Shown here piece by piece: positions 6,870-42,343 of a stretch of DNA of 64,000 bases. Within the stretch, counting starts at the first letter, position 1. Each line of letters begins with the position of its first letter. Origin of the DNA: Bryoerythrophyllum caledonicum (Eukaryota; Streptophyta; Bryopsida; Pottiales; Pottiaceae). The position numbers were made by a program, and so were the translations under genes. The notes under the pieces were generated by a model. It searched no databases. It saw nothing but the letters and a program-made list of their open reading frames with translations, and had not been told where the DNA came from. The DNA is taken from NCBI GenBank assembly GCA_963971425.1, contig OZ020517.1:8062501-8126500 (forward strand). Direction: 5' to 3'.

Positions 6870-7164
6870 GTATCTTATTGAAACTTTGGATTTGGGCCGC
6901 TTTACACTAAGAAGCCGAGCCAATTCATCTCCAAGTTGATTGCACAAAATTTCAGCCTTTTTTGGGCTGGAGGCCGACCTCAAGTAGTCATAGAATAAGA
7001 TTATAATCGGAGCCAATTCTTCCGTATGGAAAGTCCTTGGGGCCAAGAAGCCAGGCTGACTCAATAAATCTAGAGAAATTTAGCCCTTTTCTCTCTTTAT
7101 ATTTTATATTTCATTCTAAAAATTTATAAATTATATTTTGTTTAAAAAGTTTTTTTATATTGAA
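6870..7164. mobile_element. Left half of a MITE interrupted by the retroelement
   Basis: The motif TTTGGGCCGCTTTACACTAA with GAAGCCGAGCCAATT nearby reappears as an inverted, diverged copy on the far side of the retroelement (around 17220-17285). Together the two sides look like the arms of one palindromic element split by the insertion. The retroelement's target duplication TGAA sits at 7161-7164. Confidence 0.35.
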
Positions 7165-7211
7165 TGTCACGGGACGTGGCGTCGAGGGTCTCTCCGTATT
7201 GTAGATTTTAG

Positions 7212-7238
7212 CGTAGATTAGTTTGTTACTAATCTACG
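7212..7238 (+). promoter_or_regulatory. Inverted repeat 1 in block A
   Basis: CGTAGATTAGT, 5-nt loop, ACTAATCTACG: 11-bp perfect arms. It is conserved in A2 (16702-16728). It could form a hairpin in RNA or serve as a dyad protein-binding site. Confidence 0.7.
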
Positions 7239-7276
7239 TGTGTTTAGGGACGAACGGCGGCGCACCGCATTCATCC

Positions 7277-7295
7277 GTGGATGATTTTCATCCAC
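7277..7295 (+). promoter_or_regulatory. Inverted repeat 2 in block A
   Basis: GTGGATGA, 3-nt loop, TCATCCAC: 8-bp perfect arms. Also present in A2. Confidence 0.6.
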
Positions 7296-7334
7296 TTAGA
7301 GTTGTTTGCGTGTGTGTATAGCGCCGCACACGTC

Positions 7335-7362
7335 CTTGACTTGACGTCTTTGTCAAGTCAAG
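7335..7362 (+). promoter_or_regulatory. Inverted repeat 3 in block A, containing the putative primer arm
   Basis: CTTGACTTGAC, 6-nt loop GTCTTT, GTCAAGTCAAG: 11-bp perfect arms. The loop plus right arm (GTCTTTGTCAAGT, 7346-7358) is perfectly complementary to 7523-7535. In copy 2 the left arm has decayed but the 17 nt GTCTTTGTCAAGTCAAG is intact, as expected if that strand has a priming role. Confidence 0.7.
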
Positions 7363-7522
7363 CTTTGTGAGTAAGGTTAGAGAGTGATTAGTGAGTTCTT
7401 TGCTTGTAAGTGATGGTTTATCATTAGTGAAAGCTCCGCATTCTCTACTTTAGTTGCACTCGTTGATTCTCCCCTTGTGGAGTGCGTGTCGCTTGACTTC
7501 TTGTGGAAAACACATGTGATTC

Positions 7523-7535
7523 ACTTGACAAAGAC
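7523..7535 (+). promoter_or_regulatory. Putative primer-binding site, self-priming type
   Basis: ACTTGACAAAGAC begins at the first base after block A1, exactly where a primer-binding site should lie. It does not start with TGG, so a standard tRNA 3' CCA match is not evident. It is instead the exact reverse complement of 7346-7358 inside A1. The fission yeast Tf1 element uses a self-primer of this kind (the mRNA 5' end anneals to its own PBS). Use here is inference. Confidence 0.6.
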
Positions 7536-9047
7536 CTCCCATTTTTACCCTAGTTTCTTCCCGCTTTCACATTTGAAAGTGTTTGTGAAAGAGTAGGAAT
7601 GATGGGTTAGTAAATGGGTTACAATTATTCTAGTGTACTATGCTACAGCCGCGTGCGATTTTGCTGAATTTTTAGTCTTAGAGGAGGAGGATATGCTCAT
7701 GCTTATGTTCTGGAGGTGCTGCGGAGCTTGATCTATGGACTCTGCAGGAGTTTAGCTCGATTTTACATCCACAGTCGTAGTGGCGGATTTCATTCAAAAA
7801 GAGCGGGTTCTCATTCATCGGCGAGATCATTCCAGAACACGGTCAAGGGCTCACTGGGGTGGCGTGCTAGGAGCGACTCCGGGTACCAGACATGATCGGG
7901 ACAGCTGGAGGGTGGGAATAAACCCATCGGGCGATTTAGGGAGGCGCGTACTTAGACATCAGCAGTCAACGGGTCAGCTCCACCGAAATTTAGGGGCTGG
8001 GGATTGCGCGTACTGTACTTGGCTACAGCTCGTCGGGCTACGGGACAAGGAGAATAACTACGTGGGTCCCATACGGCGTGGCGTGAGTGACGTGGGCGCG
8101 CAAGTCAGCAGGAGCCCATTTGCGGCAGGCTCCTTATTCCAAAGGTACCCATTCTTGTGCCGTAGCACCTAAAGGCGTGCGTTTTGTGTGCAAATTTCAG
8201 GGAGTCCCTGGAATGAATACTTAAATTTTCAACTTTTGCGATTTAAGTGATCTTGCAATTCTGATCACGGATTTGAGTTCGTAGAAGAATTCTAAGGCTA
8301 GTGGTACAAAAAAATTAGTTTTAAAAAAAAAATATATTTTGCTAATTTTTTTGTGAGGGCCGAAAACAATCACATGTTTTGTGATCTAAAAAAAAAAGAA
8401 AAAAAAAAGATAGTGCTAAACTTTGGGAGTAGATTTCAAAGGCAGTGTTACTCGGATGTGAGTTACATTTATGCTTATAGTTAGGATTTTCGCCATTTGA
8501 CCTAATTTTAGCATTAGTTTGGCGTTTATCGTGATTATCCACCAATGTATGTGATTTCATTGGATGAATAGTGTTTTAAAACACCACGGTCAATCCCCAC
8601 TACTCCCTTAGTTTTAGACGTTAGGGGGGAACACTTTTAGTGTTTCTCTTTGATTTGCAGGTTTTGCGACTTTGAGGCATCCACTGCAGGCGTGTGCCAG
8701 TGGCGCTGTCTCTTTCATTTTCCTGCTTTTATGTTGTTGGGGGAGAGGATCCAGTTTTGATTTCTGGATTCTTGTGCGGTACCTCCCCCGTGTTGCGGGC
8801 TTGTTGCCGGTATTTCCCGGTGGCCCCATTTCTTGTTGTTCCAGTTTGTGATAGGTACCGTAGGGGTGAAGTCGGATATATGGCCGGCAAGACCTTTCTA
8901 TGTGGGGGGATGTGGTTGGACCTGTGGTAGCCGGGGGTGATGACCGGTGATCCACACAGCTTGGTGATTTTGCAGGTGCAGGTTGCCCGTTCGTATCCTT
9001 ACCCTTTAGATAGTACCCGTAGATAGATTCCGAGGTGGTTTTTGTTT
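7536..9047 (+). other. Long untranslated leader of the retroelement
   Basis: About 1.5 kb between the primer site and the gag ATG. A 130-codon ORF (7780-8172) is Arg-rich with no domain and is not claimed as a gene. The A-rich stretch near 8310-8410 and the T-rich or GC-rich parts suggest leader RNA, possibly with packaging or translation-control roles, but nothing specific is recognisable. Confidence 0.5.
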
Positions 9048-12000
9048 ATGGTGAGTACCCGGAGTCGGTATTACCGCTCTCCCTCACCAAACCACTCGGA
9101 GAGTGCTTCCACCACAGACTTTGGGCCAGGGTCGGATACCGACGAGGCTTTTGAGCCTGTTTCGGCGTTGCATACCGACCGTAGGCTTCGGGTCTGGAGT
9201 GTGGGCACGTTTGACGACATGGAGGACGATCACCGTGATGTCGTGCGAGATAGGTTCTCGGGACGGGCTGGGGGCATCTCCCTACCCGATTGGCGTCTCC
9301 GATTCCAAACTTGGATGAAGGAGAAGCGTCAGCGGACGCCGTCATTCAACGATTGGTACGCGTTCGAGCTTTTGCCCCAGCATTTGGAGCTGGAGGCACT
9401 TCAGACATATGGGAGGTGGACTACGCAGCACGAGGCAGAGTTGCGCCCGGTTGAGGAGTATTGGCGCCAGCGTGTGGAGTTGGTTACTGCACTCAAGGAG
9501 AGTGCGGTTGCCCAACTCTCGACTTCCACCGAGGAACCCAATGAAGAGGAGAGTTTCCTCGGTGAGGACTCCAAGGGCAAGGGTGTTGCCATTGTGGGCG
9601 AACGAGTTGGCATGAGGGCCATGTCTCGTTTGGCCGTAGCCACACGTGCGGCATTGGTGGCGGTTGGCAACCCGCCAGCCTTCGATCCTCTGGCGCAGTT
9701 CATGGCGCATTTGGAGGTGGACTACGGGAGGTTTCGGCGCGATCAGATGCACCGCATTCAGGACTTCCGCCGTGAGAAGGAAGACACGCCACGCACCATG
9801 TACACACGGTTGGCGCGGTTGGCGGCGGAGGCTGGTGATGTCTTCACGGAGCGCCAACTTGTGAAGATTTTTATCTCCAAGCTCGACAAGCGGATGGTAG
9901 AGTTGATCGGTCCGCATTTGCTCTTCCGGTACCACGGCAACGCGACCTTGGCTCAGGCGTTCGCCGAGGTGGAAGCGCTTGACCGGGCGTTGGGTGTGAG
10001 CGAGGCCACAGACTTGGTCACGTCGCTCATGGACACTCCGAAGTCCAAGAAGCTTGCTACGGCGACTAGTAGCTTGGCAGAAGCACAACCTGAAAAGGTT
10101 GTGCATTGTTGGGCTTGTGGAGAGGCCGGTCACACTAAGGGGGACCCCAATTGTCCGAAGAAGAAGGAGGCAGTGGCGAGGAAGGCCAAGCCCAAGACCG
10201 AGGCGGCCAAGCTTACGGAGAAGACTGGGGGCAAGGGAAAGAAGCTTGTGACATGCTCTCACTGTGGCAAGCCTGGCCACTGTGATGAGAACTGCTTTTC
10301 TCTTCACCCGGAGAAGTGCCCAGGATCTTCGGCTGTTGGATCGGATGCCGTGAAGTCACTTCAATCCGAATTGGCGGAGCTGAAGAAGCAGATGAGCGCG
10401 ATGGCTTCTTTGGGGCAAGTGGTAGACACACGGCCTGTGGTGACGGGTCAGGGCTCATCTTCAGCCTTAGATCGCTACTTGTATGGCGCTTCGGGGGAGG
10501 TGGTGGCAGCGGTTGCCACTCGTGCTCAGACCATTACACAGGCGGTGGCACTCTCTTCCACTATGCCGGGTAGTAGCGGTCGTTCACGCCATGCGGGTTT
10601 GCCGGACCACATTGGTCAGTCCCGGCTACCTCTTTCGTTCAGCATCGCGGATGCGGCTACTTCTACTGCCGCTCCCACTTCGATTTCGGTCCCACCGGTT
10701 TCTTCCAGTCCTGGAGATGTTGCACACACCTTGGCGTATAAGGTGTTGCAATTGCCGGTGTTTGCTGGTGTGGACTTTCTCACATCGGATTTTCAACCAT
10801 CCGGTGTATTCCACTTGGCGGGTAGTATGTTGGAAGGCAAGGTGCCCATTCCGTCATTGGAGGTGTCACAGGCAGTGACCGCTCCACCCACTGAGGAGGA
10901 TTTGGTGGCAATGCGGGCCAAGTTGGCGGCGGAGGCTATTTCCGCGTTTGAGGCCAATGCCACTTCCACACCTATCGAGCAGTCGTCCGGGGATCGGGCC
11001 TTGATCTCTGGAGTGGCTTATTTGTCTGACGTTGCAGCCCGATCGGCACGAGAGCGACGTAGTGTGCGTCCAGGGGTGGTACGGTTGGTGAATGACGATG
11101 GAGTCATGGTGGTAGGTCGTACGGATGGCAACTCCACTCGAGCTACCCCCCTACGCGTTATGTTGGATTCCGGGGCTCAGCCAGTGATGATTGGCAAGCA
11201 GCTAGCCCAGGATTTGGGCCTAGGTGCTTTGGACCTCGAGCCTTATCCATTCACGATTGTTACATCGGTTGGGGGCACGGAGAAGGCCATGGGCTACACC
11301 CGACATCCGTTGCAGTTGATGTTTGGCGTGGGATCTGGTCCATTGTTCTCCCATGTCTCCCTTCAGTGCGCTGTTACTGGCGCCACCAACTACGATATTT
11401 TGGTGGGCCAGCAGGCACTATATCTACTTGGATTTGGGGTGGATAACTGGACGGAGGAGGCCTGGATTAGGCCAGGGTGGTCTGCCGGTGATGGCAGGAA
11501 GGAGCTCATCCCCGTAGTCTTCGCAGCTAGCGCGGTGACTTCGACGACAGACGCTATGTTTGGGTGTAGTGCTCTGGCATCAGACTTGCCGTCTGCTTCT
11601 TCACTTTTGGAGGAGACATATGCATTTATGTCTGTGGTGGAGGATTCACGCGAGCACCCACCATTGGCGATCCCTGCCCGTCATTGCAAGGATCCGCTTC
11701 CGCCGTGGGGGACACCGTTGGAGCTCGCTTGTCGTAGTGGAGAGATCGTGGATGCTCTTGATGCTCCACTGCCTTCAGTGGACTCTTCCACTCTGTTGTT
11801 GGCTCGTACTATTCAGTGGCGACCACCGGATGAGGGTATTACCCTTGTGGAGTTATTTGCCGGTATCGGTACGGGGCTCGCGGCTGTGTTGGAGGCCGGG
11901 CTCAAGGTACGACGGTATATCCACGTGGATAGTGGCTTTGCAGCCAACCGTGCCGCTCACCATCACATTCAGCGTCTTCTGGCGTTGTATCCAGAGCAGT

Positions 12001-12926
12001 TACCATCTTCTGCGATTCGAGGGTGTTTTGGCAAGTTACCACGTGATGTGACGTTGATCAGTGAGGATGATCTTCGCCGGTTAGGTCACGTGGACTTGGT
12101 GATTGCCGGATGGCCTTGCCAAGGCCATTCACGGGCGGGAAGTGGACGTGGCTTGGACGATCCACGGTCGGGTCTCTTTGCGGATTTGCTCAGACTCGTC
12201 CAGTGGTGGATTACCCACCAATCGACACCACCGGGGTACATTTTTGAGAATGTACCCCCATTGGGGGATACACGGACGAAAGTGCGTGAGGATGGGGCGT
12301 ACATCCATCACCTTCTTGGTCCCCCTACGTTTGTTGATGCCGCAGCGTTGGGATCTTACGCCCATCGGCCACGTTGGATTTGGACCAACATGGCATCATC
12401 CACGACGCTCACTTCTGCACTTGCTCAAGTGCAACGGCCCGTGCGCCGTGAGGTCGATGACATTTTAGACGACCACCGTGTTTCCACGGAGGTTACGAAG
12501 GATGATGAGCCACCATTGGCGGTGGTCAACCGCGTTGGTTTCACTCGGGGGGCATTTCCCACTTTGATGTGCTATCTAGGTTCTTTTGCCTTCAGGTCAC
12601 GCGGTTCGGGCATGGTTTGGGATTCTTCTTCCCAAACTTTCGAGGAGTCTTCTGCCGATGAGAGGGAGCGGGCGATGGGCTTTTTGACAGGCACCACCGC
12701 TGCACCGGATATCTCTGAGGGCCAACGCCGTTATTTGTTGGGTCAAGCCATTGATCTCAACACCCTTGTTTGGATATGTGGCCTCTGTTTCGCCGCTCAA
12801 CGCCGTTCGAGTGACCATCCACGCGTGCTGGGGGGCAGACTCTCATGGTCAGGGGGCAGCGGTGCCACATCTCACAGAGATCGAAGAAGCGGAGTTGCTT
12901 TTTCGATTGAAGAGACATGCAGCTGA
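9048..12926 (+). CDS. Gag - aspartic protease - C5 cytosine DNA methyltransferase polyprotein
   Basis: The first ATG of the frame is at 9048. Residues ~60-330 are gag-like, with a capsid-type helical region around PPAFDPLAQFMAHLE. Two zinc knuckles follow: C354/C357/H362/C369 (spacing CX2CX4HX6C) and C403/C406/H411/C416 (classic CX2CX4HX4C). A retroviral-type protease has D707-S-G-A and a later NYDILVGQ strand. Residues ~930-1245 are a complete cytosine-5 methyltransferase: motif I LFAGIGTG (936-943), motif IV PCQ with catalytic C1024, motif VI ENV (1067-1069), motif VIII HRPRW (1106-1110), motif X LLGQ (1230-1233). The ERERAMGF...RRYLLGQ C-terminus recalls Dnmt3/DRM-type enzymes. No catalytic residue is missing. 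The reading frame ends early at 12926 because of a 22-bp insertion near 12835 relative to copy 2; the ancestral frame continued to the TAG at 13087. Confidence 0.92.
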   Translation: MVSTRSRYYRSPSPNHSESASTTDFGPGSDTDEAFEPVSALHTDRRLRVWSVGTFDDMEDDHRDVVRDRFSGRAGGISLPDWRLRFQTWMKEKRQRTPSFNDWYAFELLPQHLELEALQTYGRWTTQHEAELRPVEEYWRQRVELVTALKESAVAQLSTSTEEPNEEESFLGEDSKGKGVAIVGERVGMRAMSRLAVATRAALVAVGNPPAFDPLAQFMAHLEVDYGRFRRDQMHRIQDFRREKEDTPRTMYTRLARLAAEAGDVFTERQLVKIFISKLDKRMVELIGPHLLFRYHGNATLAQAFAEVEALDRALGVSEATDLVTSLMDTPKSKKLATATSSLAEAQPEKVVHCWACGEAGHTKGDPNCPKKKEAVARKAKPKTEAAKLTEKTGGKGKKLVTCSHCGKPGHCDENCFSLHPEKCPGSSAVGSDAVKSLQSELAELKKQMSAMASLGQVVDTRPVVTGQGSSSALDRYLYGASGEVVAAVATRAQTITQAVALSSTMPGSSGRSRHAGLPDHIGQSRLPLSFSIADAATSTAAPTSISVPPVSSSPGDVAHTLAYKVLQLPVFAGVDFLTSDFQPSGVFHLAGSMLEGKVPIPSLEVSQAVTAPPTEEDLVAMRAKLAAEAISAFEANATSTPIEQSSGDRALISGVAYLSDVAARSARERRSVRPGVVRLVNDDGVMVVGRTDGNSTRATPLRVMLDSGAQPVMIGKQLAQDLGLGALDLEPYPFTIVTSVGGTEKAMGYTRHPLQLMFGVGSGPLFSHVSLQCAVTGATNYDILVGQQALYLLGFGVDNWTEEAWIRPGWSAGDGRKELIPVVFAASAVTSTTDAMFGCSALASDLPSASSLLEETYAFMSVVEDSREHPPLAIPARHCKDPLPPWGTPLELACRSGEIVDALDAPLPSVDSSTLLLARTIQWRPPDEGITLVELFAGIGTGLAAVLEAGLKVRRYIHVDSGFAANRAAHHHIQRLLALYPEQLPSSAIRGCFGKLPRDVTLISEDDLRRLGHVDLVIAGWPCQGHSRAGSGRGLDDPRSGLFADLLRLVQWWITHQSTPPGYIFENVPPLGDTRTKVREDGAYIHHLLGPPTFVDAAALGSYAHRPRWIWTNMASSTTLTSALAQVQRPVRREVDDILDDHRVSTEVTKDDEPPLAVVNRVGFTRGAFPTLMCYLGSFAFRSRGSGMVWDSSSQTFEESSADERERAMGFLTGTTAAPDISEGQRRYLLGQAIDLNTLVWICGLCFAAQRRSSDHPRVLGGRLSWSGGSGATSHRDRRSGVAFSIEETCS

Positions 12927-13089
12927 GGAGCTTCGTGCTCAGCGTGTCTTTGCAGCCTTGGCAGAGGACTTTGGCCATGAGGATGCTCGAGATATCTTTT
13001 CCCAGTTTTATCATCATGACACGGGATTTTCTGTAGATTCTGTGAGTGAGGGGTCTGGGGGCATTAATGCCCTCTCTGCTACCAAGTAG
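12840..13089 (+). CDS. C-terminal linker of the Gag-Pro-methyltransferase ORF, frame-displaced
   Basis: In a second frame (+1 relative to the methyltransferase) the stretch beginning AAVPHLTEIEEAEL runs to a TAG at 13087-13089. Copy 2 keeps recognisable parts of this segment (ELRAQRVIAALAEDF..., HHDTGF...). There it belongs to the same frame as the methyltransferase until its own insertion. It is acidic and Glu/Ala-rich, with no domain I recognise, and probably links methyltransferase to RT after readthrough. Confidence 0.65.
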
Positions 13090-13095
13090 CAATCA
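13087..13095 (+). promoter_or_regulatory. Stop-codon readthrough site TAG-CAA-TCA
   Basis: The stop separating the Gag-side ORF from RT is followed by CAA TCA, which fits the tobamovirus-type readthrough consensus UAG-CAR-YYA. RT continues in the same frame. Copy 2 has the same AAG-TAG-CAA-TCA at the equivalent place (minus strand, near 62300) although much around it has decayed. Efficiency is unknown. Confidence 0.7.
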
Positions 13096-16071
13096 CTGGC
13101 CGTGCCGGTACGCGGTGAGTCTTCTACGGTGGAGAAAGAGACCACGGAGTTTGATGATTGGCCTTTGGATTTGGGGCCACATCTTACCGGTGCCGAGGCA
13201 CGAAGGGTACGAGCGTTTATACATTCGTATCGTGGTTGTTTTGCCTTTAGTCTCCATGATTTGGAGGGCTATAGAGGCAAACCGATTCACATTCAATTGG
13301 AGGACGACCACCCGATCTTTCGACGACCTTACAAGCTCAGTCTCTCTGAGAAAGTTGGGGTTCAAACTCGTTGTCAGGAGTTGTTGGACGCCAGCTTGAT
13401 TGAGCTCTCCAACGGCGAGTACGCTTGTGCCACGGTGATGCCATCGAAGAAGGACATCTTTGGCAACTGGACGGAGAAGCGGATGTGTGGGGATTATAGG
13501 CCGGTCAATCGTAAGACCAAGTCGGATCGGTATCCCATGCCCACGCCAGAGGAGTTGTTTGATGCGGTGGGACACGCCAGAGTATTTAGTACTCTGGATT
13601 TACGGTCCGGTTACCACCAGTTACCATTGATGGTGGAAGACCGGGTGAAGACCGCGTTCTAGGGAGTTGATCTGCATGGGAGAGATCAGCTCTACCATTG
13701 GAAGTTTCTTCCATTTGGCCTCAAGAACGCACCCGCTGAGTTTCAGAGGGTGATGGACTGGGTGTTGACCGGTTTACCGTTTGCCCGATGCTATATTGAT
13801 GATGTTATCATTTTTAGTAGCAGCCCACAGGAGCATGTGAGGCATCTTCAGGCGGTGTTTGAGAGGTTACGGCAGTGGGGATTGCGCTTGCACCATGGTA
13901 AGTGCAAGTTCTTCCACGATCGGTTGCCATATTTGAGACATATGATTGTTCCAGGAGGTCTTGGCGTGCAGCAGGCGAAGGTTGACGCGCTGCAGAAGAT
14001 CCCAGCCCCAATCGACGTGTCACGGCTCAGAGCTTTTTTTGGCCTTGCAAATTACTATCGCCGGTTTGTCAAGAACTTCAGCTTGATTGCCAAGCCGTTG
14101 ACTATTCTCACGGGGAAGGATCAGCCATGGACTTGGGGACGGGAGCAGCAGCAGGCGTTTGCTACTTTGAAGCTGAAGCTCGGTTCAGCGCCTGTACTGC
14201 GGCGTCCAGATGCTACACGGCCTTTCCACTTGCACACAGATTGGAGTGCAGTAGGATTGGGAGCCGTGTTGACTCAAAAGGATGATGAGGGACGGGAGTA
14301 CGTTGTGGCGTTTGCTTCTAGGAGCAACAACAACGCGGAGTCCAACTATTCGTCCTATGAGGGGGAAGCCTTGGCCGCGGTTTGGGCCATAGCTCATTTT
14401 AGGCCCTACTTGTATGGGCAGCGTTTTACCTTAGTGACCGACCACCAGCCTTTGAAGTGGCTCATGGAGTCTGACAAGCTTACTGGCAAGTTCGCCAGGT
14501 GGGCTCTGTTGCTCCAGGAGTATGATTTTGAGGTGGTACACCGGGCGGGCATCACGAACTTGGATGCGGATGGTCTATCTCGCAATCCAAGTCCATCGGA
14601 GGAGGATTTGACTGGTGCCAGGTGGCATGGGGACTGTGACAGAGAGTCAGTCCCGGGGTGGCATGCAACAGCCTACCTCACATTGATGTCTGGATCCACA
14701 TCGACGTTGCCTGACATGGCAGCGGATGAGGAACCGGACAAGGCCCAGGTTGTTAGCGACGTGTGGGAAGACGTTCCAGTCTTGCACAAGCTGCAACATG
14801 GCACACTTCCGCCCGCTCTTTCGGCCATGGAGCGCGATCGAGTTGGACACCGGACTGTGAGGTTCCGTTGGGAGAACGGCCTTCTATTTCGGTTGTGGCC
14901 GGATGGAACTAGGCACATAGTTCCTAGACCGGATCAGAGGGCTTCGTTGGTACGGCAGGTACACGAAGACCTTGGTCATTTTGGCGTCCGGCGGACTCAT
15001 TCGATGTTGCGCAGTCAATATTGGTGGACCGGCATGTATCAGCACGTTGCCACGTACGTTTCACGGTGTGAAGTCTGTGATCGGGTCAGATCCAGCTTCA
15101 ACACCTTGTCACCACAGTTGCAGCCTTTGCCCATCATGGGTTTGGGCTACCGTTGGTCTCTGGATTTTGCCGGGCCACTTGTTGTCACCCCACGTGGAGC
15201 CAAGTACGTGTTGGTGATGGTGGAGCACTTCAGCAAGTGGATTGAGCTTGTGGCACTACCACAGAACTCCTCGGAGTTGGCGGCCATGGCATTCCTTGAC
15301 CGGGTGCTCGCTCGTTTTGGAGCCCCAACTAAGGTGTTGACTGACCAAGGGCGTGAGTTCCTTGGTGCTTTCAAGGCTTTGTGCACCAAGGCTTTGATTG
15401 ACCACCGTACCACTTCTCGGGATCATCCGGAAGCAGACGGTTTGGCGGAGCGTGTGGTTCAGACCGTCAAGCGTGGACTACGGAAGTATGGATTACTTCA
15501 GGGTGGCCACTGTGATTGGAATCTGATGATACCATGGATCGCCATGGAATACCGGTTTAGCCGGCAGGCCTCTTTGGCCGCTTTCAGTCCGTATCAGTTG
15601 TTGTACGGACGGGAGCCGATTCTACCCAGTTCTGTACGGGAAAAGTTGGCCCCAGTTGTGGACTTGGATGATCTAGAGGTCTGGATCCAGTGTCTGCGTG
15701 ACCGAGTGGAGTTCTTCAAGCGGGCCATGCCAATGGCCATGGAGAATTTATCCATCGCTCAGCACCGCGACACATTACGGTACGCTCGCATTCGTAGTGG
15801 CGCTTATCGATCTCAGTTGCGGCGTTTCTCCACTGGAGATTACGTTTATTTGCAACGTGAGGCGCCTACGACGTTAGACGTCAAGGCCGGGCGCACCATT
15901 CTTCGTGTGAAGGATGTGTTGCCCAGTGGCATCTTGTTGCTGGAAGGCAAAAATGGCCGGGAGTGTCGGGAGCACTCCAAAAACTGCGCGCCCTGCCATT
16001 TGCCCATTGATGGCTCCGTGCATCCTGAGTTGGCCGTTGTGCCACAGGGTCTTCCGTGTTATGTGTGGTGA
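13090..16071 (+). pseudogene. Pol: reverse transcriptase, RNase H, integrase (one nonsense mutation)
   Basis: The frame is open from 13090 to 16071 except for a TAG at 13660-13662 that replaces a Trp expected in the conserved KTAFWG-type RT motif. RT carries LDLRSGYHQ, FGLKNAPAEFQ and YIDD. The connection FFGLANYYRRFV and RNase H (HTDWS, YEGEALA, VTDHQPLKWL) follow. The integrase has an HHCC zinc motif (HEDLGHFG...CEVC), then D, D and E in LDFAGP, LTDQGREF and HPEADGLAE. The C-terminal part lacks a chromodomain and runs into a Cys-rich PHD region. The frame terminates at TGA 16069-16071 because 2 bp were lost relative to copy 2. Confidence 0.9.
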
Positions 16072-16231
16072 GAAGAAGGGTGCGGCTACTATGTTGCTTT
16101 GTGACCATTGCCAGCGTGGTTGGCATATGGCTTGCTTGACGCCGCCTCTTTCTACTCTACCGTCTGGGGATTGGACTTGCCCTCGTTGTTGGAGGTCTTC
16201 GAGTCACGTTTCACCCGATGAAACGGCTTGA
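16057..16231 (+). CDS. PHD zinc finger at the C-terminus of Pol (frame-displaced)
   Basis: The Cys codon at 16057 lies in the integrase frame; the rest is read one frame over. Together they give a C4-H-C3 set: CxxC, then CDHC, WHxxC (GWHMAC), and a final CPRC with the usual Trp two residues before it (DWTCPRC). In copy 2 the finger follows the integrase tail in one uninterrupted frame (60129-60000, minus), showing that the 2-bp loss in copy 1 is secondary. PHD fingers typically read histone H3 tails. Here it occupies the position where chromoviruses carry a chromodomain. The target histone mark cannot be predicted. Confidence 0.82.
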
Positions 16232-16535
16232 ATTCCTCATAGCCTTGTCATTGTGTGGTGCGTTGCCATCCAGTTGGAGTTCCTGGTTTCGGTTCAGGGA
16301 TAGGCAACGTGGAGATTGACCAAGGGATTGGCAACAAAATTGCCGAAGGCGATTAAAGATGGGGCTCACATTGCACCCGACCTACCATCTCTTTGTTACT
16401 TCTTCATATGCTTATTGATTCGACGACGGCGACATCTTTGGCTGGATGCGTACAGTTGTTGCAGCGACATCACCGTAGCGTTTAGTCTTATCAGTGTTGT
16501 TTGGTCCTAGCTGGATAGAGGGTCTCTTTATCCGC
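16232..16535 (+). other. 3' untranslated region of the retroelement
   Basis: About 300 bp between the PHD stop and the polypurine tract. No ORF or motif recognised. Confidence 0.5.
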
Positions 16536-16546
16536 TAGGGGGGGCA
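16536..16546 (+). promoter_or_regulatory. Polypurine tract
   Basis: TAGGGGGGGCA directly precedes block B1, the expected place for the plus-strand primer next to the 3' repeat. In copy 2 the same place reads a weaker CTTGGGGCA. Confidence 0.6.
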
Positions 16547-16652
16547 CTTGAGGGTGTATTACGTATACTTGTTTTAGTGTATGTTTTTCGTTTATTTGAT
16601 GTTGGTTAGGACTCTCGATCTGTTGTGGTTATCGATCTTTCTTTACACGACA
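16547..16652 (+). repeat. Terminal block B1
   Basis: 106 bp from CTTGAGGGTG to ACACGACA, followed by the 2-nt spacer GC and then A2. It is repeated as B2 (17013-17118). The two copies differ at two sites, both CpG in B1 and TpG/CpA in B2. Confidence 0.88.
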
Positions 16653-16654
16653 GC

Positions 16655-17012
16655 TGTCACGGGACGTGGCATCGAGGGTCTCTCCGTATCGTAGATTTTA
16701 GCGTAGATTAGTTTGTTACTAATCTACGTGTGTTTAGGAACGAACGGCGGCGCACCGCTTTCATCCGTGGATGATTTTCATCCACTTAGGGTTGTATGCG
16801 TGTGCGTATAGCGCCGCACACGTCCTTGACTTGACGTCTTTGTCAAGTCAAGCTTTGTGAGTAAGGTTAGAGAGTGATTAGTGAGTTCTTTGCTTGTAAG
16901 TGATGGTTTATCATTAGTGAAAGCTCCGCATTCTCTACTTTAGTTGCACTCGTTGATTCTCCCCTTGTGGAGTGCGTGTCGCTTGACTTCTTGTGGAAAA
17001 CACATGTGATTC
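16655..17012 (+). repeat. Terminal block A2
   Basis: 358 bp, about 98% like A1. It is preceded by B1 plus GC and followed directly by B2. The junction reads GACA-GC-TGTC, a perfect palindrome. Confidence 0.9.
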
Positions 17013-17118
17013 CTTGAGGGTGTATTACATATACTTGTTTTAGTGTATGTTTTTCGTTTATTTGATGTTGGTTAGGACTCTCGATCTGTTGTGGTTATCG
17101 ATCTTTCTTTACATGACA
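17013..17118 (+). repeat. Terminal block B2 (3' end of element)
   Basis: 106 bp ending ACATGACA, directly followed by the TGAA target duplication. Block A1 at the 5' end has no B in front of it, so B2 is an extra copy relative to a normal LTR layout. Confidence 0.88.
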
Positions 17119-17290
17119 TGAAATCTAAATTGGGCCAAGAATTGGGCCTCCATTCTCGGTGCACCCAATTTAGCAAAGCTTGGGCCATGTTAAATCATGT
17201 TTTTCTGGAATAAATTTTTTTGACTACCAAATTGGCGCAGCCTCTTGGTGTAAAGAAGTTGGGGCCAACTTAAGCCTTCCGGCTAGTCAT
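17119..17290. mobile_element. Right half of the MITE interrupted by the retroelement
   Basis: Contains TTGGCGCAGCCTCTTGGTGT and AAAGAAGTTGGGGCCAACTT, an inverted, diverged counterpart of 6875-6915. Confidence 0.35.
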
Positions 17291-17607: not shown

Positions 17608-18280
17608 TCCCTAAAGGACTTGGTCTTGTGCTTCATCAAAACCACCCAAAACTACCACTTTGAGAGGAGGTATTATTAGACTCATTCAAACTCCTTTTTG
17701 CTATTTTCAACCATTGAATCTTCAAGCAAACTACTACAAGAAGACATCCAAAGAATTTTGTTACCTCTAACAGTGCGGATCGAAAGATAAATGTATTTGA
17801 AGAGTGCAAAATTGTTTTTTTCCTACTGTTCTTGGACTGGCTTGACGTACCTTGACTCAAGATAATGGCATTTATTTCATTACTCATTGCGTAAGCTCGA
17901 TGGACCTATGTTCTACCTTGTGTTAAGTCATTGCACGCCAAAAATCACAAGTAATGGAGGTGTTTACAATAAGAAAAATAGACCAACAACATCTAGGGGT
18001 ACTATAAAAAGTGACCCTTTACTTAGAAAATAAATTTTATTTCTTAAATAGATAAAGAATTGTTGGATCTGATACCCTAAATGGTGAATAGAATCATTCT
18101 GTTGTGTTTTAACAATAGAAAAAAATTAATTTTCAAAGAAAGTAAAATCCTCAATTTTTGTGCGTTTTAAAGTGAAAACAATGAAGGCTGCCAAGAACTT
18201 CCCTTCACTACTACCCGCCCAAAAAAGTACAATTGTCAACTCTACATTCGCACTATTCATCTCTATAGTACCCTGCCCAG
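17608..18280. other. AT-rich intergenic stretch with TTAA-element remnants
   Basis: Begins with a further TTAA-family end. No gene supported. Confidence 0.4.
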
Positions 18281-18614
18281 CTGCCAAAGGAGTCGAGCTG
18301 CTTCTGTTTGAAGCACCACACCCTTTTTCCTTTACCAGTTAAGACAAGATTAGTAAAAAAAACTCCCCCCCTCGCCCCTCGCACCAGGCCACTTGCGGCG
18401 TCGTGCACTGTGGCGTTCGCGGTGGGGCCAGGCTGCCAGCCCGATGCCCATCACAGGCATGTTTGCGCGCGTCGTCACTGGTCACACTGCGTACTAAACT
18501 CTGATCCCACTTGTACATGAAACATCTCACGGGTGCAGGTGACGATCATCTTATTAGTAAATCACCATCTTACATGAAACAGTGGAGGCCACGAGAGTCA
18601 AAGCAAACATCTTC

Positions 18615-18827
18615 CACGTGTGGAATCGTTAGGGGATTGTATATTTAGCAGCCGGACATGAACTTATTACAACCCCGTTGACAATAACGCCATGACAATC
18701 ACTCCATGTGGGGTTAAAATTAACTAGGAGACGATCTTCGTCGCCATGATTCAGGGCCTGCTGCGGGCAAATCTATCGGCGTTCTGGAGCGCAGCTACAG
18801 TCTTCCTTAAGGTTGACACATATAAAA
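18615..18827 (+). promoter_or_regulatory. Promoter of lectin/PAN gene 1: G-box and TATA box
   Basis: A palindromic CCACGTGTGG containing the G-box CACGTG (18615-18620) lies about 200 bp upstream of TATAAAA (18821-18827). Both are kept in the paralogue (48821-48826 and 49028-49034). The start codon is about 320 bp downstream. Confidence 0.55.
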
Positions 18828-19149
18828 AGACCATGCAAAGTTGCACATTCTCGTACCACGCTCAGAGATCAGTCGAGCTGTGAGATATCAACAGTGAGTG
18901 ATCGTCCCATTTTTTTGTGTTTTGCAGTCGTACAGTGTTGCATGTTACGGTTGGACGTCGTGATTGTGATACGTTGCTTAAGTTTGGATCGTGTAAGTTG
19001 GTCGGTGTCAGTTACCTTTCTTCGTTAAGTTATATTCCTGTGTGTGAAATCGGCGGTTGACCCTCAGGGTGCGGTCTAGATGATCTCCGAGTCTGCGACA
19101 TTGCCGAAAGCAAGTGAGATTGCGTTTTGATTTGGAGATCTGTGTGTAG

Positions 19150-21044
19150 ATGGTGGCTGCAATGTGGTTCGGTGGTAGGACGGTGGTGGTGGCCATCGTC
19201 GTTCTCGCAATGGCAGGGCAACTGGTGCAGGGACAAGTTCCCTCGTGGCGCCAGACGGGGTACAGCGCCAGCGTCGACTTGACGCGGCCAGTGGGCTCGG
19301 CGGGGCGCGGCGTGGCGGTGCTGGAGTCGAACATGTTCCAGGTGTGGCTGGAGGGCGACGACCGGAACAAGTGCTCGCTGAGCGTGCGGGAGAAGTACAC
19401 GGGGCGCGGTCCGCCGTCGGAGCGCCCGCTCGACCACGGCTACCTGCTGTGGTCCGCAAACTACTACTCGCGCACCCCGGTAGGCGCCGACAAGTGCACG
19501 TTCAAGTTCACCGCGCAGGGCGACCTCCAGCTCTGGATCCTGTACCGCGGCGCAACCTCCCTCATCTGGAGCAGCAAAACCAGCGGCCAGGGTGTCACCC
19601 GGATGGCCCTCCAAACCGCCCCAGACGACGACGGGAACTTCGTACTCCTCACGGCCAGCAACAAAGCTGTCTTCCAGAGCTTCAACGTCAAGGAATGGCT
19701 CGTCCTCTCTGGTCAAAAGTTCTGGTAAACCTCCACTAAACTCTAGCACAGTCGGATATCCTTGTTGTCTTCCACCAAATCTGATTTCCCGGAGCATTTT
19801 CAGGTCCGGAGAACTTCTCAAGAGCCCCGATCAAGTCAACGTATCCGAACCGTATCCGCGCGTACTCGCCAACAGCGGCAAATACATCATGGCCATCAGG
19901 GGCGGGGACCTGCAGCTCCTCATTAACGGACCCAAACCGCAGCTTTATTGGAGCCTAAAGAGAGAAGTCGGCTTTAAGGGCGACCTCAGCAAGGTTCGAT
20001 ATGCAGGTTAGTACTGTTTTACCAAGTTGATTGGGGAGAACGGCGTACAAAACAAGTAGTTACAGAAAAAATGCATAGGATTACTACCGGTTGTCTAGAA
20101 AAACTCCCTATACAGTGGTTGGGCTAGTACATTGTGTTGGTAAAGCACAAGGAATCCAACTTATATCAGATCACATTCAACCGTCACCTGTAGATTTCTC
20201 GTGTCTTTGTTTACCCGGTTGATACTGAGGAGCTCACGTCGTAAAAGCACAACAAAAGCACGTCCCAAACATGTGAAGGCTGCCCTGTTGATCCACACGA
20301 TTGACGTTTGTGCGAGTTGGTGGACGATTGCAGAGATAGTGAAGGACAACGAGCAAGGGATCGGGCTCTTCACCGTAAGCGGCAGGCTCGTATACCGCAT
20401 AGCGGTGCCGCCGTGGGTGGTGGCGTACGGCGCCGACAAGCACTTCGGGCTGAACTTCTTCGGCAACCTCCAGTACTCCGACATGTACAAGGGCATGGCG
20501 TGGGGCGCCGTGTGGTCGGCCATCCCGAACCCGTGCAACCTGCCACTCTTATGCGGCCAGTACGGCGTGTGCACCTCGTCCATCGACAAGTTCGGCAACT
20601 CCGCCCAACGCTGCACCTGCCCCTGGGGCTTCAAGCGAGCGAGGGTTGTGGCCTCCGGCGGGTGTGTGCGTAACACGCCTGTACTGAATAAGTGTAATCA
20701 CACCAAGTACCTGGAGCTCACGGGGTACAAGAGTGCGTATCTCAGGTATGTGCATCTTCGGTGTGTGTTGTTGGTGTTCGATATCATTGAACTCGTCTCG
20801 CTAGCTGGATCCTACTGATATCATTCTCCCGGATTATTCTAACGCCTGCTATCTCACTAGGTATGTGTCGCCGACGACTGTGCGGTCTGTGGACGAGTGT
20901 AAGGCCAGCTGCTCCAAGGATTGTAACTGCGATGGAGTGTTTTACAAGGTCAAGTCGAAGAGCTGCTACAAGGTGACTCAGATCCTAACGTTGAAGAAGA
21001 CAAGTAGCAAATCCGGCATCTCAGCTTTCATCAAAGTGAAGTAG
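19150..21044 (+). CDS. Secreted bulb-lectin / EGF / PAN domain protein, gene 1
   Basis: Four exons join in frame: 19150-19724, 19804-20006, 20334-20745, 20861-21044 (457 residues); all introns are GT-AG. The N-terminus is a signal peptide (hydrophobic VVVAIVVLAMAG then VQGQVP). Residues ~30-250 resemble a B-type (mannose-binding) lectin fold with internal repeats (GNFVLLTASNKAVFQSF, GGDLQLLINGPKPQLYW). An EGF-like Cys cluster (CNLPLLCGQYGVC...CTCPWGF) follows, then a C-terminal PAN/apple-like domain (DECKASCSKDCNCDGVFY...SCYK). This is the ectodomain order of S-locus glycoproteins and G-type lectin receptors, but with no transmembrane segment or kinase. It is therefore likely an apoplastic carbohydrate-binding protein like EP1-type glycoproteins. 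The gene is far more GC-rich than its surroundings. Confidence 0.85.
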
Positions 21045-22300
21045 ACGGACCACTAATCTTCCTCATCGAAGTCAGTGTCTTTGTTAGTGGTCATAGGTCG
21101 GGGACAACGGAGAAGAAGCTTTACCCGCTCGTGGTCATGGGTCTTGGGATAGAGAGCATAGAAGGTATTTCCCTTCATATTGTGATTAATTTTTAATAGT
21201 GTCGCATGTGACACTGTCTTCCCAAAACATTCTCTATTTTACAGAACCTTTAACTGGCTGGAGCTTAAGTTTTTTTAATTAAGAGTTACTAATTTAAAAT
21301 GGATGGTTGTAACTTGTAGAGACATATTTGAGTTTTCCTGAAAGACACCAAAATACACTGGATAGGTACCCCGAATCTTAGGGTCTTATGTTAGTAACCG
21401 GGACCACATGCACATGGTGTCTTGTCTTGGGAAAAGTTTGGGAAACTATTGGTCAACCCTGTGAGAACTTAGCGTACTATGGGGGAGCTTTAGCTTGCAT
21501 AGGGTAGGGCCTAAGAACATTGTTTGCAAAGCATTTCATTGGTGTAGAAAAAGGCGATATGAAATTTCCTCACTCTTTTTTTTCCGTTTATACATCTCAT
21601 ACTACCACCATATTCCTCCACACTTGGCCATTCGGGAAGTATTTTCAGGAAAACTCTATTCTTGGCGGACGAAGTTCCTAGCTTAGCCAATTGGAATGTA
21701 GTGACATGGACTGGTCATGTGTTTAAGTCCTACTTTCGGATGTGGACTTTGCAATATAAGGTAAGCTTCCCCAAAACCAACAAAAATCCAAAGCCAACAC
21801 CTATAAAATTAGGGTTTCAACCCTCTTCCATCCCATCTCCACCTACTCAGCTCCAAATGGAGGTTTGCTATTAGTGAAGACCCTTACTTTTGGTCGTTGG
21901 TTATGGGGGTACCTACTACTAGCCACCTACTAAATATGGTTGCAAGGTTTGTTAATTCATAACTAATTCAGTTTTCATCGAAAAAATATTATATCACTTG
22001 GGTTGGAATTTTTATAATAGTATGAATATCTCCACTCTCCACATGCACATTCCTTAACTTGTCGGTTTCAGGGGCGCTTTCCTTAGTCTCCATTGACCGT
22101 GAGCTGAGGCAGTTGTTGAAGTTAAAGTTTTTTGTGTGTGCTTGTGTATCTGTCAGTCGCTAGTGAAAAGCAAGTTCTTGGTCTTACAATGCAACACTAA
22201 ATACAACGGTCCCTAACACTACGTATTCTGTGTGTGACTAAATACCAATTTTAATAGTATATTCAACTTTTGGAAATTATGGACAATGAAAATTTTACTT
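21045..22300. other. 3' flank of lectin gene 1
   Basis: Non-coding. The first ~430 bp match the flank of lectin gene 2. The block at about 21860-21960 (AATGGAGGTTTGC, GGGGGTACCTACTA) is a dispersed repeat seen inverted near 5100-5210 and related to 29520-29700. Confidence 0.5.
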
Positions 22301-22317
22301 GTTAATATTTAGTGTAG

Positions 22318-22395
22318 ATAATTGATTGTAGTATATGTTTGATAATTGATTGTAGTATATGTTTGATAATTGATTGTAGTATATTGTATGTTGAT
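22318..22395 (+). repeat. Tandem repeat, ~23-bp unit
   Basis: Unit ATTGATTGTAGTATATGTTT plus GATA, repeated about three times, followed by degenerate TATA-rich sequence to about 22700. Confidence 0.75.
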
Positions 22396-22733
22396 TGATA
22401 ATTGATTATTGTAATTGTATTATGGAATATGTTGAGTACATGTACTCTTTGATTATATTTATAATGTATTGTATATTCTTGTATTGAATGTATACATGCA
22501 AATATTGTAGTATATACTATATATGGTACAAAATATATGATATTTATAGTTTGTGCAAAATAAACACGGATTGAATACACACTGAAGTGTTGTATGCATA
22601 TTATTTATAGAGTTATAGTAGCATACTATAAATAAATACTACGGCATAGATTACTCTAGGTAGTACTACATAGTGTTATATATAGTAGATATTTTTGAAT
22701 GAATATAGTATATATTTTGTATTGCATTTGTAG

Positions 22734-24010
22734 ACATTAGAGGTTCCTTGAAAGTAAAGGGAGGTGAACACACATGTTATACCAAATCTTATAAACTTAT
22801 GATAATAACTGGGATCACATGCACATGGTGACTTGGCTTGGGAAAGGTACGGAGGAATCACTGGTCAACTTCTTGGGAACTTGGGGTACTATGAGGGAGC
22901 TTTAGCTTGCATGGGATAGGCCACAAGAGCATTGTTTGCCATTACTATTCATGCATTTCATTAGTGTAGAAATTGGGAGTATGAGCTATTTAACAAATTT
23001 CTATTTGGGTGCACAAAAAAATTTCACCATATGTGGCTCATCTGATATCCTCTCTTTCCTCTTTGGAAAGCACTTTCACAAAAGCTCTATTGGAAGTGGC
23101 AATTGAGAGGACTAATAGTAATTGTCAACCTCTTCACATGAAATTGTATTAAGGTAACACAACTATTTGTAACACAACTCTAAACATCAAATTTATTGTA
23201 CTTCATATGAGCAAACACATGTCACCTAAGAGCATTTGGCCTCCAAATTGCATGTCTCATATGACACCAATTTACATTGATCCTAAAGTTTGTTGATTAT
23301 ACACCAAAAACACTTTGAAGTTGATGATCCTAGTGTAAAGAGTGTAGAAAGGGAACATGGATTTTTATTTCCATTTTTTTAATCATTGGATCCTAAAATC
23401 ACATGATTTCAAAAATTCATAAACTTTGACCGCACAGTAGGAAGATTATAGTGGTAAAAAGGAATAAAATGTTTTTTTTCCAGCATCAAACTTTGATTTC
23501 ACTTGGTGTCACGTTCTGACGCTACAAAATGTCTAAATTTTATACCATCACGTTGAAGTTGATATGATCTTTTTGTGCATCAAATTTTTAGAGGTAGAGA
23601 ATGGGCATGACATATTCACAAATATTGTGCAACGAGTAAAGGTTCAAAATTACCAATACAATTTTTTTGTGAAGATAATAATTATGATTCAAAATGAGAA
23701 TTTGAATGGCCAATCAGAAGGGTCAAATTGAAGCTTGTAGTAGAAATATTTTAGAAAAATGTATTAAGATCTTTGAGTTTTTCGTAGTAAAAAAGAAGTT
23801 TCTTTAGTACCTTGCCTAACAATGTGTGATAATGTTTGACTTGGATTAAAAAAAAAATCTAGGCTAATGACATCAATTCACATGAGTATGTCTACTACAA
23901 TTAAGGTATGTGTGTGGTAGTATTTGCAGCAACAAGATTCAAGTGATCTAAAACGACAAATCTACAAACCTATCAGCTTCTTCAGAGCTTTTTTTCAAAA
24001 TCTACTTCAC
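22734..24010. repeat. Non-coding repeat shared with 53886-55185
   Basis: Part of the segmental duplication. No ORF of interest. Confidence 0.6.
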
Positions 24011-24013
24011 TGA

Positions 24014-24603
24014 GGGGCGGTTTACACTATAGACCAAGAGCCGTGACCAAGGAAAATGAATTAATTCCATGGTCACAATTCATGGTCACACTTCAGAAAA
24101 ATGTAATTTTTAAAGCCCTTGGGCCTCTCACTAAGTGTAAACCGAATTTGGACCGGGAGGAATGACCATGCACTAAAAAGTGGGCGTGCTTATTTTTTTA
24201 ATGAATGCCTAAAAGGGCAGTATTACCTAAAATTACAAAGAAAATAAAACAAGACAAAAAGGGTGACCGCCATTGTATTTAGAGTAACGTTGGGCCCCTC
24301 TAAAAACCAACCAAAAAAAAAAAAATCAATTAAAAAATAATAAAACGGCATTTTAGGCCCATGGTCTCCTCATTTTAGCAATGAGAGAACCCTTTTTGCC
24401 TCTCTCACCGCAAAATCCGGGGGACCCTTCAACATTATCCATTAGGCCTATTTCTAGGCCTTTTGAGGACCTCAACTCCTTTGGTCACTTTTCTTTTTTC
24501 CTTATAGTGAAAACCCAGGTCATCCCGGGACAAGTTGATGGAGCCAATCACAGATTTTAGAGGGTCATGGGACGAGTTCTTGGTCCATAGTGTAAACCGC
24601 CCC
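24014..24603. mobile_element. MITE with GGGGCGGTTTACACTA terminal inverted repeats
   Basis: 590 bp with TIRs GGGGCGGTTTACACTATAGA and the complement at the right end (CCATAGTGTAAACCGCCCC), flanked by TGA (24011-24013, 24604-24606). The paralogous segment has the uninterrupted site TTACTGAGACC near 55183, confirming the boundaries. A 3-bp duplication and G-rich TIR suggest a PIF/Harbinger-type MITE; this is inference. Confidence 0.8.
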
Positions 24604-39763: not shown

Positions 39764-40730
39764 TTCGCTTTCATGTCGTCATCGAAACATCGGCCGTACG
39801 GAATATTCCAGGGTGTGGCAGAAAGATTCAGTCGCCAATCCCTAAGAACTGTTCGGATTCACACCCCAATCAGTCACGTCATCTTACTTCTCGAGTCGAA
39901 ATATATTAGGCGCTCGGGATTTGATTGTACATTCGGAGACGATGTAGTTACTGAATCACTACACGATAGCTCCCGATCGACTCTAAGGGCAGAACGAAAC
40001 ACAATCTGCTCCAATCCTCTCAAATTGAATGCGGATACGGAATTTTACGAGGAACAAACCTAGGTCTCCTGGAATACTGTAAATTGTTTCCCTGCATAAT
40101 TCTAGCACGATGTCGCGCACGCAAACACTCTCACTGACTGGCTCAGCTCCCACAGTATCCCAAACCTCCAGAGCAAAAAAGGATGAGAGCTGAGTTGAAG
40201 GATATTCTTATCAATCTCCTCATCACCTCCTGGTGGGAAAATTCAGGTGCTCAAATTTAAAACGAATCTTGGGCATGCATACTCTATCATAGTAACTGCT
40301 GTACACCATCATGATAGTGCGCATTCTTCGACGTGCCCACGACCGAGGCCACATTCCACTCATGATAAATGAAAGGCTCGTACTCATGGTTTGACCGTAT
40401 TGTAAGGAAACCATCTAGTTCCCAGAGTGCTGCAAATTAGAAAATGGTAGATGAATTATGCCCCATGGTGTATTTTTGTGTTTACTAAGGTTGTATCACG
40501 TCATGGACTAAGCCACAATATAATGTAATCGCATTAAACTTCTTGTACTCACCATTGTAGATGAAATTATACCCTACCCATAGAAAACAGTCGGCCCACT
40601 GCTGCCCACTACACTAAAAGTTTCATTTAGTGTAATGGCATGAATAGTGTACTTTCCTTAGTACACTAATTGCAAACAAGTTGACAAATAGTGTACCAAT
40701 TGCAAACAAGTGTACTTTCTCAAAAGATTA
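39764..40730. other. Non-coding or unrecognised stretch
   Basis: A 122-codon plus-strand ORF (39695-40063) has no recognised domain. The remainder contains TAGTGTACCAATTGCAAACAAG duplications near 40650-40710 and no gene. Confidence 0.4.
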
Positions 40731-40734
40731 TTCG

Positions 40735-40985
40735 ATCAAAATTTACTTAATCAAAGATTACTTTATCGGAGTACACTTTATGGATATTTAATTTTTTTAA
40801 AGCTTACTTTTTCAAGAGATTACTTTTTCAAGTTTTACTTCTTATAAAGTTTACTTTTTCAAAATTTACTTTTTCAAAACCATACTTTTTCAAAACTTTA
40901 CTTTTTCAAAAATTTACTTTCTTCCAAGTTTACTTTGAAAAAGTTCACGTTTTCAAAAGTTCACTTTTTTAAAAGTAAATTTTTC
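40735..40985 (+). repeat. Degenerate tandem repeat TTTACTTTTTCAAAA
   Basis: At least ten irregular ~14-16-bp units (TTTACTTTTTCAAAA, TTCACTTTTTTAAAAG and variants), directly upstream of the LINE at about 41000. Confidence 0.8.
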
Positions 40986-41266
40986 CAAGAATCAAAGGAT
41001 CTTTCTTTTAGTCCTTAGTCCATAATTCACCTCATAGTCCAGAAATAGTTGAATATGGCATCTATACCAAAAGATAATATAGAAAATTTCAACACAAAAT
41101 TCTTTGAAGAAAACTCCATACAAATAGACTCCCTCACAAACACTCTTGAAATAATAATCACCTATCACAAATACAATGGAAAGAAGCATGCCACACCCTA
41201 GACAAACTCATCAATAAAATCTCTAACACATTAGAACAAACCTGTAGAGCCCACCCAATACTCCAA

Positions 41267-42301: not shown

Positions 42302-42343
42302 ACCATACATATACTTAGGTACAAATCTTGTTCCCTCACTAAA

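Follow-up and report, generated by a model that had tools for sequence, protein, structure and literature searches.

A retrotransposon carrying a C5 cytosine DNA methyltransferase (DNMT) was analyzed in a 64,000-nucleotide window of the Bryoerythrophyllum caledonicum assembly (GenBank GCA_963971425.1, contig OZ020517.1, positions 8,062,501 to 8,126,500). Judged by its sequence, the stretch 7165-17118 of this window is one member of a Ty3/Gypsy-type family present in many copies in the genome of a streptophyte. The DNMT is Dnmt3-like, forms the last domain of the first open reading frame (ORF1) and, as its substitution pattern demonstrates, is maintained by purifying selection.

The methyltransferase and its family

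The DNMT domain was located at ~11820-12815 on the + strand, with motifs I, IV, VI, VIII, a IX-like motif and X. PF00145 matched residues 933-1077 of the frame 9048-12926 (~11844-12278) with an E-value of 1.5e-11 and 44.8 bits, the curated cut-off being 22. The first-pass annotation of the window had described a complete C5 methyltransferase and listed I, IV, VI, VIII and X as intact motifs; all five were found: FAGIG (I, 11856-11870), PCQG (IV, 12114-12125), ENV (VI, 12246-12254), HRPR (VIII, 12363-12374) and LLGQA (X, 12735-12749). The motif order is I-IV-VI-VIII-IX-X, i.e. not rearranged. The same annotation had proposed a Dnmt3/DRM-like origin. Ranking by profile and fold put the domain nearest DNMT3 among the C5 methyltransferase classes, and by profile, fold and motif order it is Dnmt3-like. 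DRM was ruled out, as motif X does not precede motif I, an order which the host's own DRM exon (L039) does show. In a tree of nine rows, the element DNMT falls outside DNMT3A plus DRM on weak or open forks and is not nested in DNMT3.

In the window, the ORF1 frame at 9042-12926 (+) is uninterrupted for 1294 codons (ORF list). Pfam matches and reading frames assign gag, CCHC, aspartic protease and DNMT to 9048-12926; intact copies measure 1353-1371 codons from stop to stop. The protease match (PF13650, 11145-11288, +, residues ~700-747 of 9048-12926) has an E-value of 3.5e-4, which is under the Pfam cut-off. ORF2 (13090-16071, +) encodes reverse transcriptase (RT), RNase H and a DDE integrase (PF00078, PF17917, PF17921 and PF00665); behind ORF1 of the window copy, the RT, RNase H, integrase zinc-binding and rve matches lie in the next frames. 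The order gag-protease-RT-RNase H-integrase, with a DDE integrase, was found by Pfam in L014, L030 and the window, the gag and protease matches being weak. The DNMT stands after the protease match and before RT-RNase H-integrase, in the ORF of gag, as had been read at first pass. The element was also rightly called lightly damaged: the window copy contains one frameshift in the linker after the DNMT (between ~12831 and 12866), a premature stop in RT (13660-13662) and a second frameshift near 16061-16065, ahead of the C-terminal PHD finger.

A second copy in the window (59374-62812, - strand) is decayed and 5′-truncated, with 79-80% nucleotide identity to the first. Its DNMT remnant at 62803-62570 covers query residues 285-362 of 388 with 77% identity and one stop. 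The C-terminal part of the domain, from which a family trait had been deduced, is therefore kept, but a 5′-truncated remnant is weak evidence alone; the family trait is carried by the genome-wide reading.

A PF00145 search of the assembly (437 Mb) gave 1053 candidates, and 123 places were scored. This number is a lower bound, the window's own copy being absent from the list; many of the 123 sit in open frames of at least 1300 codons. Forty-eight places were read (L001-L008, L012-L031 and L038-L057): eight with loci given by the tool, 20 chosen mainly for long frames, and 20 mainly from the profile-start group or the low end of the list. The sample favours high-scoring, long-frame copies, so that intact copies are over-represented, and every copy was recovered through its DNMT domain, so that relatives lacking it could not appear. 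The element DNMT is encoded at 46 of the 48 places (tblastn, E-values up to 1e-10); the remaining two are the host DRM gene (L039, 188 bits to DRM2) and a bacterial-type enzyme (L001). Two main subfamilies, 52-54% identical in the DNMT, were distinguished: subfamily A (window, L029-L031 and others) and subfamily B (L012-L028 and others). More diverged or decayed members are L038, L045 and L056. A recently inserted host gene restricted to the two window copies, earlier named as a possible source of the domain, does not agree with 46 copies in two subfamilies.

Motif counts and ratios of nonsynonymous to synonymous substitution rates (dN/dS), the latter a check that had been called for at first pass, were based on 48 sequences, namely the 46 copies and the two in the window. 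Nine were dropped as not full length and six of the remaining 39 for stops. In the 33 full-length, stop-free DNMTs, PCQG and ENV are present without exception, LLGQA in 32 and HRPR in 28. Between two subfamily B lineages, dN/dS of the DNMT was 0.054 (L014/L012) and 0.059 (L016/L024), over 360 codons at a dS of 1.3. For the same two pairs, values were 0.075/0.076 for gag, 0.093/0.108 for protease, 0.020/0.020 for RT, 0.009/0.023 for RNase H, 0.025/0.034 for integrase, 0.039/0.059 for the integrase C-terminal part and 0.105/0.062 for the PHD finger described below. The linkers reached 0.289/0.308 before and 0.352/0.325 after the DNMT. Constraint on the DNMT is thus far above that on the adjoining linkers and slightly above that on gag and protease, but below that on RT and integrase, and it is this contrast (0.05-0.06 versus 0.29-0.35) that establishes purifying selection.

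Inside clusters of similar copies, mean ratios were 0.14, 0.15, 0.22, 0.31 and 0.68, of which 0.68 is based on two pairs. Comparing subfamily A clusters with one another gave 0.33-0.73; the top values involve the partly frame-shifted L045, yet L029/L049 also gave 0.69. Such raised values are expected, because young copies free of constraint are compared here. Between the two subfamilies, synonymous sites are saturated or nearly so.

Two further observations concern the copies. The observed/expected CpG ratio is 0.47-0.54 in the ORFs of L014, 0.75-0.82 in those of L012, 0.84-0.87 in subfamily A elements and 0.71 in the remainder of the window. Four diverged 61-nt units, 62-75% alike, were seen in the 5′ leader at three loci of subfamily B (L012:837-1105, L018:824-1092 and L024:8906-9174).

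Amber codon, PHD finger and element ends

In intact copies, ORF1 closes at a single TAG and ORF2 continues in the same frame; of the 20 ten-kb loci, 10 have a complete ORF2 of 1041-1047 codons. Because the DNMT is the last domain of ORF1, upstream of this in-frame amber codon, it stands on the Gag side. The stop context is AAG TAG CAA TCA in subfamily A (13084-13095, +, in the window) and CAA TAG CAA CCA in subfamily B, with single variants. Alignment of the site in the decayed second copy (62307-62296, -) gave AAGTAGCAATCA. The amber site could be aligned in 44 of 49 loci examined, in one of them (L020) only partly, which leaves 43 readable. The context TAG CAR YYA is present in 42 of these; the exception, L026, has CAG. 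In L026, this CAG joins ORF1 and the beginning of ORF2 into one frame of 1710 codons, by which the separate Gag-level product is lost. The type I readthrough consensus of tobamoviruses is UAG_CAR_YYA (PMC3542737). With UAG followed by CAR YYA between in-frame ORFs, the element family has a candidate readthrough site of this type.

ORF2 terminates in a PHD finger (16061-16228, +, in the window, found by tblastn), at the position of the chromodomain of chromoviruses. PF00628 was matched with E-values of 2.1e-10 (L030) and 2.3e-9 (L014), and the C-terminal region with the PHD finger is present in 19 of the 20 ten-kb loci. A Pfam scan of ORF2 of L014 and L030 to an E-value of 0.5 listed the PHD finger and found no chromodomain.

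Six copies were read end to end: the window copy, L029, L030 and L031 (subfamily A), and L014 and L012 (subfamily B), four of them with neighbouring pieces. The first-pass label of an LTR-type element holds with a qualification: the domain order is of the Gypsy type, but two identical long terminal repeats (LTRs) bounding the element were not found. In all six copies the order is A-coding-B-GC-A-B, with repeat A at the left end and B-GC-A-B at the right, i.e. split direct repeats in the order of DIRS elements. The tyrosine recombinase and absence of target duplication that define DIRS do not apply, as ORF2 encodes a DDE integrase (rve) and perfect 4-bp target duplications flank every one of the six (TGAA, AGCA, GTGC, TCTA, CCTC and AGGA).

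In the window, the duplication TGAA lies at 7161-7164 (left) and 17119-17122 (right). Repeat A1 (7165-7528, +) starts with TGTCACGG and is 97.8% identical to A2 (16655-17017, +); repeat B1 (16547-16652, +) is 98% identical to B2 (17013-17118, +), which finishes with ACATGACA. In the five other copies, A1 and A2 are 98.6-100% identical. Those of two subfamily B copies are identical, from which it follows that recent insertions exist. All six copies begin with TGTCA and finish with GACA, and GACAGCTGTC occurs exactly once per element, at the B1/A2 junction, where it forms the palindrome GACA-GC-TGTC (16649-16658, +). Sequence comparison revealed no significant similarity between the A repeats of the two subfamilies; as unrelated repeats share their termini and the GC spacer, both are probably functional.

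Directly behind A1, a candidate primer-binding site ACTTGACAAAGAC (7523-7535, +) is complementary over 13 nt to 7346-7358 in the middle of repeat A. The pair is ACTTGACAAAGAC with GTCTTTGTCAAGT in subfamily A and ACTTGAGAAAGAT with ATCTTTCTCAAGT in subfamily B. This 13-nt complementarity was found in all six copies, two positions covarying between the subfamilies; across 200 control windows for each copy, matches reached at most 8 to 10 nt. The site would thus be a candidate for self-priming of the Tf1 type, in which the primer site is complementary to the element's own RNA. Folding placed the self-complementary 13-mer in a hairpin (7335-7362, +), which has a 12-bp stem in subfamily A (z = -5.0, letters of L030) and ~10 bp plus 3 bp in two subfamily B copies (z = -2.9 and -2.5). 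The hairpin is made of different letters in the two subfamilies. A G-run adjoining B1 (16535-16546, +), read from the sequence and at the same place in all six copies, is a candidate polypurine tract.

With a primer site beside A and a purine tract beside B, normal reverse transcription would yield LTRs of the form B-GC-A. We infer that the genomic copies are circular permutations of such a product, opened within one LTR at CA-GC-TG, and the A2/B2 join would be the expected product of ligating two B-GC-A LTRs. Taken together, the split repeats and the pairing of the primer site point to an element that primes itself and integrates from a two-LTR circle; such a circle, cut at the palindrome by the DDE integrase, would account for all these features.

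Proposed function and rival explanations

The following course of events is proposed. Termination at the amber codon would yield abundant Gag-protease-DNMT, and occasional readthrough Gag-Pol, so that the DNMT would be packaged at Gag level together with the RNA. Minus-strand DNA would be primed by the RNA's own A sequence paired to the primer site, and reverse transcription would give (B-GC-A)-coding-(B-GC-A), closing into a two-LTR circle. This extrachromosomal DNA would be methylated de novo by the DNMT ahead of contact with host chromatin. The DDE integrase would then cut after CA on both strands of the internal CA-GC-TG palindrome and insert the element at a target where the PHD finger recognizes histone H3. 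In this way, the methylated complementary DNA (cDNA) might escape defences directed at naked DNA or slip into the genome unnoticed. Taken as a whole (Gag-level DNMT, self-priming, two-LTR circle, methylated cDNA and target reading by the PHD finger), the proposal appears to us evenly poised between right and wrong. Methylating the element's own cDNA seems the most likely function of the DNMT, being the most economical role for an active-looking domain kept at what should be Gag level. Among the roles put forward at first pass (silencing of competitors, hiding from the host or marking of its own cDNA), the layout of the element speaks for action on its own cDNA. Methylation of own extrachromosomal DNA has been suggested for DIRS elements (de Mendoza et al. 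2018, PMC5890265).

More tentatively, the family may represent a Gypsy-type class that integrates through its DDE integrase from a two-LTR circle opened at GACA-GC-TGTC, like an IS3-family circle junction, the circle being methylated by the Gag-level Dnmt3. Captured methyltransferases would then go with split-repeat circle-formers (DIRS with Dam-like or Dnmt3 enzymes, KnitGypsy-Dnmt3 and the present family) as a long-lived circle needs methylating. To our knowledge, captured cytosine and adenine methyltransferases occur in split-repeat elements (DIRS, KnitGypsy and the present family) but also in one family of long interspersed nuclear elements (LINEs), which is a weak point of this correlation.

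Four other explanations were considered. Integration might proceed from normal linear cDNA, with the repeat order produced when the template is switched in an unusual way or when the 5′ LTR loses B. TG...CA ends and 4-bp duplications are the normal outcome of a linear substrate, and the two-LTR circle is an inferred form, not an observed one. Nevertheless, A-coding-B-GC-A-B recurs in all six copies, although the repeats of the two subfamilies are unrelated in sequence, and the published Klebsormidium nitens element is also DIRS-like in order (PMC5890265). Moreover, the candidate polypurine tract adjoins B1 and the primer site A1, predicting B-GC-A LTRs whose ends differ from the integrated ends. 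We therefore hold the linear route to be unlikely, if still a serious competitor of the circle.

The DNMT could also work in trans, with host chromatin or competing elements as its target instead of its own cDNA, and so silence rivals or mask the element once inserted. The PHD finger could bring Gag-Pol to chromatin, and hosts of DNMT retrotransposons can show odd methylomes (PMC5890265). The DNMT, however, is part of the structural precursor on the Gag side of the leaky stop and the PHD finger is on the other side; a benefit to all copies would, in addition, select the domain only weakly in any lineage, yet selection is strong. Action in trans is accordingly thought improbable.

Methylation of RNA by a Dnmt2-like activity, or a role as a nucleic-acid-binding part of the capsid, is to be regarded as more improbable again. 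Expression at Gag level would place the DNMT with the RNA genome, and RNA methylation has been proposed for a dinoflagellate LINE DNMT (PMC5890265). DNMT3 is preferred over Dnmt2 by the sequence profile and, less sharply, by fold, and the catalytic PCQ and ENV, needless for mere binding, are retained in 33 of 33 stop-free copies. Finally, a passenger origin, in which a few copies had picked up a host or bacterial gene or the assembly had produced a chimera, is hardly credible for 46 copies on many contigs, in two subfamilies ~53% identical with dN/dS of 0.05-0.06, even though the assembly does hold odd material (a bacterial-type Dcm at L001 and two plastids).

Host genome and known systems

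Plastid contigs with rbcL-trnR(CCG)-accD and a canonical DRM gene identify the host as a streptophyte. For PsaB of contig C894 (612 residues read), the best PDB matches were 7ksq, 6l35 and 8htu (1412.6 bits), which we take to be Physcomitrium patens, followed by 9lut (1379 bits) and others at 1346 bits or less. The host plastid is moss-like, and the nuclear contigs are likely from the same plant. Two different plastid genomes, 90.7% identical around rbcL, are present in the assembly (contigs C821, C894 and C590; L009-L011), which may mean that two plants were sampled. On C572 and on the chromosome-scale contigs C14, C4, C6 and C1, psaA/psaB matches were seen that are partial or decayed, many of them with stops; these are probably plastid DNA moved to the nucleus. 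L001 (G000:C14:16016358-16017317) is a full-length bacterial-type C5 methyltransferase (218 bits) in DNA of 63% GC on a chromosome-scale contig, beside a transposase frame that is presumably IS5-like. It may represent contamination, mis-scaffolding or gene transfer.

Elsewhere in the window, positions 40001-46000 show strong strand asymmetry over ~6 kb (GC skew -0.28 to -0.50, AT skew 0.14 to 0.29). The segment 43964-46292 has an inverted partner, 70% similar, at 24755-27070. A large interrupted direct duplication (18280-24014 and 46966-55188, blocks 78-93% identical) may be a segmental duplication or a pair of long elements.

Found alongside a moss-like plastid, a DNMT family with many copies under selection would extend the phenomenon onto land. 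Its gene order makes old guesses testable, the DNMT being expected at Gag level, and the readthrough site would allow dosage to be manipulated cleanly. With its conserved internal palindrome, the family also lends itself to asking whether a retroviral-type integrase can act on a circle junction, a route once proposed for retroviruses and later dropped. A 2019 opinion paper described methylase transposons as absent from land plants such as tracheophytes (PMC6338049), and in a 2025 paper the streptophyte and dinoflagellate elements with DNMT3 are called 'LTR Copia and DIRS' (PMC12344493), at variance with the Gypsy assignment. Among open-licence PMC papers, no report of such elements in bryophytes was found, nor of the combination of a DNMT on the Gag side of a readthrough amber codon, an integrase PHD finger, A-coding-B-GC-A-B ends and a 13-nt self-pairing primer site.

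The 2018 precedent named at first pass proved correct: in that work (de Mendoza et al. 2018, PMC5890265), Dnmt3 domains were described in DIRS elements of Symbiodinium and in the Pol ORF of Gypsy elements of Klebsormidium, whose repeat order is DIRS-like. Ka/Ks below 0.2 was reported, as was activity in yeast for the DIRS enzymes only (PMC5890265). By published description rather than by sequence, KnitGypsy-Dnmt3 of K. nitens resembles the present family in its Gypsy-type domains, in an intron-less Dnmt3-class domain with normal motif order inside a polyprotein, in its DIRS-like repeat order and in purifying selection; its DNMT belongs to the Pol polyprotein ORF, whereas here it is in the Gag-protease ORF upstream of the amber codon (PMC5890265). 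The main text of that paper contains none of the words PHD, readthrough and self-priming. SymbioDIRS-Dnmt3 shares a Dnmt3 domain and split repeats (A-coding-B-A-B), but has a tyrosine recombinase where the present family has a DDE integrase and 4-bp target duplications (PMC5890265). Some DIRS elements carry adenine methyltransferases (PMC5890265). DIRS/Ngaro/PAT-type elements in general have split direct repeats in common with the family and differ in integrase type and target duplication. For these elements, a circular intermediate has been proposed.

Tf1/Sushi and the plant Tcn1 chromoviruses share the self-complementary primer site and a domain of chromatin-reader type at the integrase C-terminus, which is a chromodomain there and a PHD finger here. 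Unlike the present family, they possess ordinary LTRs. Self-priming was reported for Tcn1 and TAR in a survey of plant LTR retrotransposons, the main text of which does not contain the words methyltransferase or PHD (PMC6317226). Tobamovirus type I readthrough has the UAG-CAR-YYA context in common with the family, and murine leukemia virus (MuLV) likewise has a UAG between Gag and Pol, which share one frame; the difference from both is that the upstream product ends here in a methyltransferase.

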